A stretch of DNA of 64,000 bases from Terrirhizobium terrae. GTDB lineage: Bacteria; Pseudomonadota; Alphaproteobacteria; Rhizobiales; Rhizobiaceae. Made by a program: the position numbers and the translations under genes. Positions 54,524 to 56,134 of this stretch are shown in pieces (the stretch's first letter is position 1; each line of letters begins with the position of its first letter). The notes below the pieces were generated by a model. The model was not told the DNA's origin and searched no databases. It worked only from the letters and a program-made list of their open reading frames with translations. The stretch covers positions 2,455,501 to 2,519,500 of the forward strand of contig NZ_CP104992.1 of NCBI RefSeq assembly GCF_030323265.1. Direction: 5' to 3'.

Positions 54524-54547
54524 TGTCGCAATGTCGCCTATGCGACA
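54524..54547. promoter_or_regulatory. Inverted repeat upstream of the cobalamin riboswitch
   Basis: TGTCGCA (54524-54530) and TGCGACA (54541-54547) form a perfect 7-bp inverted repeat with a 10-base spacer, about 35 bases before the riboswitch. The spacing is about one helix turn and a half, as for dimeric regulators. AraC-type betaine regulators of the GbdR kind are one candidate. The binding protein is unknown. Confidence 0.45.
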
Positions 54548-54581
54548 AGCTGTCATCGGGCTTAAATGACACCAAGCTCAT

Positions 54582-54785
54582 GGTGCCGCCTTGCTAGGGA
54601 AGGCGGAGAATTGGGAAGCCGGCGGATCTAAAAGATCTAACCGGCGCTGCCCCCGCAACGGTGGTGGAGTTTGAGGCATGGCGTAAGCCACTGGGACAGA
54701 GCCGAACGGCCGCCCGGGAAGGTGCCATGCAGTTCACTGAGGGAAACCTTGGAGACAACTCCTCAGCCCGGAAACCAGCCTGAGC
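54582..54785 (+). ncRNA. Cobalamin riboswitch
   Basis: The conserved blocks of the cobalamin riboswitch occur in order: GGGAA at 54613-54617, GCTGCCCCCGCAAC at 54646-54659, CCACTGG at 54688-54694, GGGAAGG at 54716-54722, and the B12 box CAGCCCGGAAACCAGCC at 54764-54780. The arm GCCGGCGGATCT pairs with AGATCTAACCGGC as in P3. After the aptamer a stem GGCGGG/CCCGCC (54828-54845) without T run and the site GAGGA before the ATG suggest control of translation. The only gene downstream on this strand is the Rieske oxygenase. Confidence 0.9.
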
Positions 54786-54890
54786 CGTAGTTTAGACCGG
54801 TCGCGGAGGGCGCTCGGGACGAGAATGGGCGGGAGGCTCCCCGCCGGCTTGTCCATGCCCTGTCCGCTTGCTTGATTTGCGAGGAAGCAT

Positions 54891-56134
54891 ATGGACATTC
54901 ATAATCAGGTTCTGCGGCAGCTGAAGAACCGTCGCGAAGGCTTCAGCCTGGAGCAGCCCTTCTATATCGACCAGGATTACTACAAGCTCGATCTGGAGAT
55001 GATCTGGTATCGCGACTGGCTGTTCGTCGGCCATGATTGCGAGGTGGAAAAGGCCGGCCAGTATTTCACCCTGCAGATCGGCGACTATCCGGTTCTCGTG
55101 ATCCGCACCCGCGAGGGCGATATCCGCGCCTATCACAATACCTGTCGCCATCGCGGGCACCGCGTCTGCACCAAGGAAACCGGTTCAGCCACTCGTCTCG
55201 TCTGTCCCTATCACCAGTGGACCTATCAACATGACGGCTCGTTGATGTCGGCCCGCCACATGGGCGAGGATTTCGACAAGAAGAAATTCGGCCTGAAGCC
55301 CGTCCATTGCCAGGTCGTTGCCGGCTACATCTTCGTCTGCGTTGCTCAGGAGGCCCCGGATTTTGCTCCGGTGCGTGCTACCGTCGAGCCCTACATGGCC
55401 CCCACCGGTTGTCGGAGACAAAGGTCGCCGCCAAGAATACCATCATCGAAAAGGGCAACTGGAAGCTCGTCTGGGAAAACAACCGCGAGTGCTACCACTG
55501 CGCCGGCAACCATCCCGAACTCTGCCGCACCTATCCGGAAGCGCCGACGGCGACCGGCGTCCAGGGCGCGGGCGATGATCCGTTCATCTCCGAACACTGG
55601 AGCCGCTGCGAGGCGGCCGGTCTGCCGAGCACGTTCAACATGTCGCCGGACGGCCAGTTCCGCGTCGCCCGCATGCCGCTCATCGAGGATGCCGAGAGCT
55701 ACACGATGAACGGTCGACCCGCCGTCCTGCGTTCGCTCTCCGACGATGTGAAGATTTCCCATATCGGCACGATGCTGCTGTTCCACTATCCGACGACCTG
55801 GAACCATATGCTCGTCGATCACGCGATCTCCTTCCGCGTGATCCCGATCGGACCGGAGGAAACGGCCGTCACCACCACATGGCTCGTCCACAGGGATGCG
55901 GTTGAAGGTGTCGATTACAATGTCGACGAACTGACCCATGTCTGGAACATGACCAACGACCAGGACCGCCAGATCGTCGAGGAAAATGCCTTCGGGATCC
56001 GCTCGCCGGCCTATGAGCCGGGCCCGTATTCGGAAGCCCATGAAGGCGGCGTCATGCAGTTCGTCGAATGGTACGCCAACTTCATGATCGATCGCCTGCA
56101 GGGAGACGAGGGCAAGCTTTACGCCGTTGCCTAA
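54891..56134 (+). CDS. gbcA: Rieske oxygenase alpha subunit, glycine betaine demethylase-like, one frameshift
   Basis: After correction the protein has 414 residues: a Rieske 2Fe-2S domain (residues about 45-150) with CRHRGHRVC and CPYHQW, and a catalytic domain with the mononuclear iron site in [18 protein letters not shown]. The overall sequence, including [11 protein letters not shown] near the C-terminus, fits GbcA, which demethylates glycine betaine to dimethylglycine. Related stachydrine or carnitine oxygenases cannot be excluded. Adding one C to the run at 55399-55403 joins PYMAP to [12 protein letters not shown]. No reductase (gbcB) gene is adjacent. A cobalamin riboswitch precedes it. 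Confidence 0.82.

Follow-up and report, generated by a model that had tools for sequence, protein, structure and literature searches.

Ribonucleotide reductases that occur beside nrdJ are B12-independent isozymes placed under B12 riboswitches. For methionine synthase, a passage of PMC2211319 that cites earlier work states as a rule that metE is under a B12 riboswitch where both isozymes coexist, and ole1 is proposed there as another possible isozyme case. As to glycine betaine, the passages of PMC12478193 used here describe MtgBCDE of Ruegeria pomeroyi, which demethylates this compound and makes methionine, and the glycine betaine monooxygenase GbcAB of Pseudomonas and Chromohalobacter. These passages note bacteria that possess GbcAB without MtgBCDE, do not note genomes with both, and contain the word riboswitch solely in the title of a cited paper on the glycine riboswitch. 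Among the open-access papers listed by our searches, no report of a B12 riboswitch paired with gbcA was found.

The locus described here lies in a 64 kb window, i.e. the whole stretch of DNA that was analysed. It resembles the metE/metH pair in that gbcA, encoding a B12-independent enzyme, is placed under a cobalamin switch and a B12-dependent counterpart is encoded in the same genome. Unlike metE, the gene appears to encode an oxygenase of osmolyte catabolism; the routes are chemically unrelated, and the methyl group would be delivered to different pools, formaldehyde through gbcA and methyl-THF or methionine through mtg. The metE-type isozyme rule is thus known, and the enzyme pair, the catabolic role and the different fates of the methyl carbon would be new. 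We propose that the gbcA leader acts as a cobalamin-responsive OFF switch for a B12-independent, O2-using first step in betaine catabolism, to which the B12-dependent mtg route is the alternative, and we assign this reading a probability of about 0.83. The features of the window on which the argument is built are as follows.

54563-54797, + strand: cobalamin riboswitch aptamer (RF00174), 82.9 bits, covering positions 1-189 of the 189 in the model
54646-54658, + strand: C-rich aptamer loop GCTGCCCCCGCAA, invariant in 29 of 29 aligned gbcA leaders including that of the window
54799-54815, + strand: P13-like hairpin with the loop GGAGG, directly 3' of the aptamer, proposed as the regulatory hairpin
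54891-55400, + strand: gbcA-like gene, first frame (Rieske half), NF058607 at 212.5 bits; frame break near 55400
55406-56134, + strand: gbcA-like gene, second frame (catalytic half), NF058607 at 253 bits for 55430-56134

The Rfam covariance model matched over its full length with an E value of 6.4e-19 (gathering score 31.5), and this was the sole Rfam match above the gathering thresholds that cmscan returned in the 64 kb window. The riboswitch of the initial annotation (54582-54785) falls within the match. Its gap of about 105 bases to gbcA also holds when counted from its own end, the start codon at 54891 being located 93 bases past the Rfam end. The next frames on the + strand, at 56208 and 56828, encode small proteins that are foreign to the pathway as judged by eye, so gbcA is the only apparent target of the riboswitch.

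The initial annotation had also drawn gbcA as a gene running to 56134. Its assignment to the GbcA-like family was borne out, while the single frame was not, as two frames are split near 55,400. Rhizobium sp. NFR07 (L044), the closest of the named relatives found, has gbcA as one intact gene of 414 aa. A second gene of the window (58614-60403), judged by eye to encode an acyl-CoA dehydrogenase, is also split, while the frame in L044 continues through the corresponding place. Outside the window, nrdE of the same genome is split as well (L130 5033-7185). Since these two genes are also broken and the assembly has 91.25% completeness in 3 contigs, the frame break in gbcA is likely due to assembly indel errors.

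The intact L044 orthologue (P0002) contains a Rieske domain and a ring-hydroxylating catalytic domain. GbcA (NF058607) was its best NCBIfam model, with 498.3 bits against an equivalog cut-off of 670. The closest solved chains to the gbcA product are 3n0q and 3vca/4qup, of which 3vca is the stachydrine demethylase Stc2. The product therefore resembles both GbcAB and Stc2 in its domains, with GbcA as the best match, and by family it would be a quaternary-ammonium demethylase, whose substrate is likely glycine betaine or a near relative. It differs from GbcAB in scoring below the equivalog cut-off and in being under a B12 riboswitch. A further difference from GbcAB is that the window's own gbcA frame is broken and no gbcB was found with it.

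A GbcB-like reductase gene was present in 122 of the 158 fetched gbcA loci, i.e. in 84 of 97 aptamer-bearing loci and 38 of 61 others; the usual GbcB-like neighbour scored 365.4 bits, below its own cut-off of 500. No close gbcB was found in the window's own genome, where the best match had 30% identity. A gbcB search of 18 genomes at E 1e-20 yielded nothing for 8 of them and, for the window's own, a single match, the one of 30% identity. The following loci combine the switch, mtgC and a full-length gbcA with no gbcB in the fetched locus (12 loci):

L044-L047, L049, L050, L054, L081, L083, L089, L133, L134

The frameshift near 55400 and the missing close gbcB could also mean that the locus of the window strain is decaying, with a switch that is still intact and has no present function. 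We regard this as unlikely. The second half of gbcA has 98% identity with its intact NFR07 counterpart (96% over residues 168-414), the split of another window gene and of nrdE in an assembly of such completeness points to indel errors, and the 12 loci listed above lack gbcB in the fetched locus with their gbcA at full length.

Conservation of the riboswitch was examined in three sets of loci with a covariance model whose training set comprised 17 gbcA leaders and the seven other switches of the window's own genome; some of the loci later scored were part of this set. Among 80 loci from named Rhizobiaceae genomes, 46 carried the aptamer before gbcA, 45 of them strong and one decayed (L051, 54.7 bits), and two extra fragments of 17-20 bits were detected. 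The second set of 80 gbcA loci contained 52 with aptamer, including two weak ones of about 70 bits, and the 29 gbcA loci of the same genus gave 16 plus one fragment of 19.8 bits. Counted by genus in one even sample, an intact aptamer precedes gbcA in 32 groups (31 uniform and one, g1, mixed). The initial annotation had suggested searching for the riboswitch in front of GbcA homologues across Rhizobiales and had named lack of conservation of the pair as a refutation; in the Rhizobiaceae loci searched the pair is conserved.

The structure is conserved together with the position. In the 29 aligned leaders, 98.8% of pair cells hold standard pairs versus 96.2% in shuffles, and 11 pairs are changed on both sides, where shuffles gave 4.9 and slid controls no more than 4. 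The riboswitch core is conserved, and its helices covary beyond both kinds of control. These results confirmed that the cobalamin riboswitch before gbcA is real and conserved in Rhizobiaceae. That the aptamer came to lie before gbcA by chance or hitchhiking can practically be dismissed, given its intact presence in 32 genus groups, its covarying helices and its joint presence and absence with mtgC as described below.

If MtgBCD replaces the gbcA product when B12 is supplied, the switch should be kept only together with mtgC. This prediction was tested in an even sample of the family, 199 genomes with assemblies of at least 90% completeness, in which gbcA was found in 79 (E up to 1e-120) and mtgC in 143 (E up to 1e-60). 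As all gbcA genomes except the window's own were tabulated, paralogues included, 78 genomes remained: 49 had switch and mtgC, 2 the switch only, 4 mtgC only and 23 neither (Fisher p 1.3e-13). MTTB genes, 1 to 7 per genome, were detected in exactly those 53 of the 78 genomes that have mtgC. For the 80 named genomes, mtgC was found in 40 of 50 and 10 of 30.

A similar picture was obtained at the level of loci. The 158 scored loci (78 plus 80) were reduced to 150 by leaving out four with identical proteins (L057, L065, L102, L103), three paralogues of about 55% identity (L208-L210, without aptamer, two of them in mtgC-positive genomes) and L110, whose upstream region is cut off and whose genome has mtgC. 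L211, L212 and L015-L043, with L027 as the 19.8-bit fragment, entered the aptamer scan only and stand outside the association. Both switch and mtgC were present for 92 of the 150 loci and neither for 49, leaving 6 with mtgC only and 3 with the switch only. The aptamers of these three (L051, L156, L159) are weak or decayed, at 54.7-70.3 bits. Hence, none of the 92 loci with an intact aptamer lacks mtgC, and 52 of the 58 loci without one lack mtgC as well. A nitrogen-fixing laboratory strain, Rhizobium leucaenae USDA 9039 (L092), is among those that combine an intact switch with gbcA and mtgC. In a side observation, the mtgC matches of G061, G098, G111, G189 and G248 contain one stop codon that was read through; G061 was counted as mtgC-positive.

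The association was then corrected for relatedness by contrasts on a tree, which was the GbcA gene tree and not a species tree. Of 12 independent pairs, 9.1 on average changed the same way and 0 the opposite way (median p 0.004). When weak aptamers were scored as missing, the 13 pairs gave 10.7 same on average and 0 opposite (median p 0.001). The presence of gbcB in the fetched locus, used as a control trait, gave 1.1 same and 0.4 opposite of 12 pairs, and gbcB was rejected as an equally good correlate of the switch. At the genus level, 31 of 45 groups had both switch and mtgC, 11 neither, 1 and 1 were discordant and 1 was mixed (p 1.8e-8).

Among the genomes searched for mtgC, the decayed aptamers and fragments identified by model or pattern (L048, L051, L066, L112, L117, L156 and L159) all occur in genomes without mtgC. 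Because aptamer remnants persist in the mtgC-less L048, L066, L112 and L117, loss and not gain explains at least these cases, and L051, L156 and L159 could be useful natural intermediates of switch loss. It should be pointed out that the six loci with mtgC and no aptamer (L060, L068, L073, L085, L183, L184) count against the prediction, and they imply that the switch can be absent where mtgC stays. A remnant hairpin was recognised by eye in L060, where mtgC is present.

B12 riboswitches as such were present in all 38 genomes tested for them, including 25 of 27 without the gbcA switch; the paralogue holders G145 and G153 are outside these 38. Genomes with neither switch nor mtgC (n=23) contain 1-6 B12 riboswitches (mean 3.0), and genomes with both (n=11) contain 2-10 (mean 5.5, gbcA's own included). 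A total loss of B12 riboswitches was thus rejected as the cause of the loss of the gbcA switch, since mtgC-less genomes keep others, though fewer. Their smaller number means that a B12 control weakened overall may be a contributing factor.

In the window's own genome, RF00174 has eight copies. According to translations inspected by eye, two of the switches lead BtuF-like transporter loci, and further ones lead a BluB-like gene and cobW-like and cbt/cobO-like clusters. Another precedes the nrdE locus (TIGR04170). One more precedes a 4HBT thioesterase gene and a MetR-like LysR gene, opposite MesX (PF08908) and core-MetE:

G000:C1:1610642-1610845 (L001); L129 8817-13196: switch of the thioesterase/MetR-like locus

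By this arrangement the MesX/core-MetE route may be under indirect B12 control. By their predicted products, the companions of gbcA under the switches of this genome serve B12 supply or are B12-independent isozymes. Longer stretches were retrieved for six relatives, three of them chosen for a second switch nearby, and in 3 of the 6 gbcAB lies beside metH (L213, L215) or near a switch-led nrdAB (L214). In L213, gbcA and gbcB are flanked by metH on one side and, on the other, by a TonB receptor gene that is led by a switch (receptor by eye); in L214, they come two genes after nrdAB and are followed by a gene resembling homocysteine methyltransferases; in L215, metH was recognised by eye.

In another explanation, low B12 induces gbcA so that carbon from betaine methyl groups or formaldehyde feeds cobalamin synthesis or the supply of C1 units to B12-independent methionine synthesis, and not as a replacement of MtgBCD. 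Most switches of the own genome do lead B12 supply genes as seen by eye, such genes are named as the usual targets in the part of PMC2211319 used here, and the MesX/core-MetE locus lies opposite a switch-led gene. However, this explanation predicts a switch on gbcA regardless of mtgC, and the 23 mtgC-less genomes retain their other B12 riboswitches with none on gbcA, which makes it quite improbable. The initial annotation had also raised the idea that betaine methyl groups feed B12 production, and this idea is disfavoured on the same ground, since the mtgC-less genomes that keep other B12 riboswitches have none intact on gbcA. Its comparison with metE/metH fared better: the mtg genes of a corrinoid betaine route are co-encoded, and the switch tracks mtgC across the family.

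The B12-dependent route is represented in the own genome by two MTTB genes, one of them in the following cluster:

C1:3648-3664 kb (L127), own genome: mtg cluster with one MTTB gene

This cluster further encodes a pterin-binding MtgD-like protein (396 bits, cut-off 259), an MtgE-like protein resembling betaine-homocysteine methyltransferase (553.5 bits, cut-off 338), an activator of corrinoid proteins of the RACo type, and a corrinoid protein for which MtgC (NF047996) was the best of 13 families listed, with 209.6 bits below the cut-off of 370. A ProX-type ABC transporter in it was matched weakly (36.7 bits of 215). With MTTB, corrinoid, pterin-binding and Bhmt-like MtgE subunits and an activator, it is, by family matches, an MtgBCDE-type cluster like the MtgBCD(E) of Ruegeria pomeroyi, a split methionine synthase. 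A possible MetH was also observed in this genome, as a frame of 1274 aa that includes a homocysteine methyltransferase domain.

That gbcA and mtg act on the same substrate is what our proposal supposes. The same switch logic could instead apply to an oxygenase acting on another betaine, e.g. proline betaine; a paralogue from the MttB family would then be the B12-dependent counterpart of this oxygenase. The stachydrine demethylase among the closest solved chains, the score of the L044 orthologue below the GbcA equivalog cut-off and the 1 to 7 MTTB genes in each of the 53 mtgC genomes would all fit such a variant. On the other hand, GbcA is the best NCBIfam model, the usual neighbour is GbcB-like, and a ProX-type transporter, if a weak match, lies in the own mtg cluster. 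We consider a different betaine a possible but clearly less probable substrate.

As for how the aptamer may act, the invariant C-rich loop and the hairpin 3' of the aptamer were examined together. Kissing loops between such loops occur in cobalamin riboswitches, and as proposed labels we take GCTGCCCCCGCAA to be L5, the partner of the L13 loop, and the 3' hairpin to be P13. By eye, the loop GGAGG is complementary to the C-rich loop. The P13-like hairpin (helix 10; helix columns 287-303) has 6 pairs, 3 of them changed on both sides, and is paired in 95.4% of cells, with one mismatch in the window's own copy. Of the 97 leaders with a riboswitch, 86 contain the motif of the hairpin loop, versus 2 of the 57 others, where shuffling expects 1.5 and 0.7, and the motif pair of C-rich loop and hairpin loop was likewise found in 86 of the 97. 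In single-sequence folds of four leaders, the three relatives show the hairpin 3' of the aptamer, while the minimum-energy structure of the window leader lacks it there; no rival structure common to all four was found.

In the window leader, the stretch from the aptamer to the start codon yielded no intrinsic terminator with a U-run, and such a terminator was rejected as the expression platform of this leader. The distance from B12 box to start codon is 108-198 bases (median 123; 94 of the 97 leaders measured). Taken with the missing terminator, these distances make Rho-dependent or translational control likelier. Cobalamin riboswitches are usually OFF switches, and by this analogy OFF is the most likely polarity here. 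Repeated TGTCGC motifs were also observed upstream of gbcA (about 54510-54560 in the window; 900 bases upstream scanned) and might be an operator. At least two repeats are present in 58 of the 97 leaders with an aptamer and in 43 of the other 57; the repeat does not separate leaders with and without the switch.

The proposed cobalamin OFF switch would then work as follows. When cobalamin is plentiful, it would bind to the aptamer, the C-rich loop would dock on the P13 loop, and gbcA expression would fall. Betaine methyl groups would then enter the corrinoid route, passing from MtgB to the cobalamin of MtgC and on to THF by MtgD or to homocysteine by MtgE. When cobalamin is scarce, MtgBCD could not work and gbcA would be released by the switch, so that the Rieske monooxygenase would remove the betaine methyl group as formaldehyde. 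We infer cobalamin binding, the OFF polarity, the mode of control and the substrate of the gbcA system. The genomic pattern suggests that B12 supply chooses between the two betaine routes. We lean, with less assurance than for the proposal as a whole, towards a B12 riboswitch that sets the fate of betaine carbon, with methyl-THF and methionine as the products under B12, formaldehyde without it, and mtgC selecting for the switch.

If this is true, a further pair of isozymes under B12 riboswitch control would be added to methionine synthase and ribonucleotide reductase, this time in osmolyte catabolism, and it would become predictable which genomes are able to switch. The newly described aerobic MtgBCD route would gain independent comparative support outside marine bacteria. 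B12 status would be tied to the use of a major plant osmolyte by soil and plant-associated bacteria. In the passages of PMC12478193 used here, betaine catabolism of S. meliloti is described as including a second, unexplained route; with B12 as the variable, this old puzzle would become testable.
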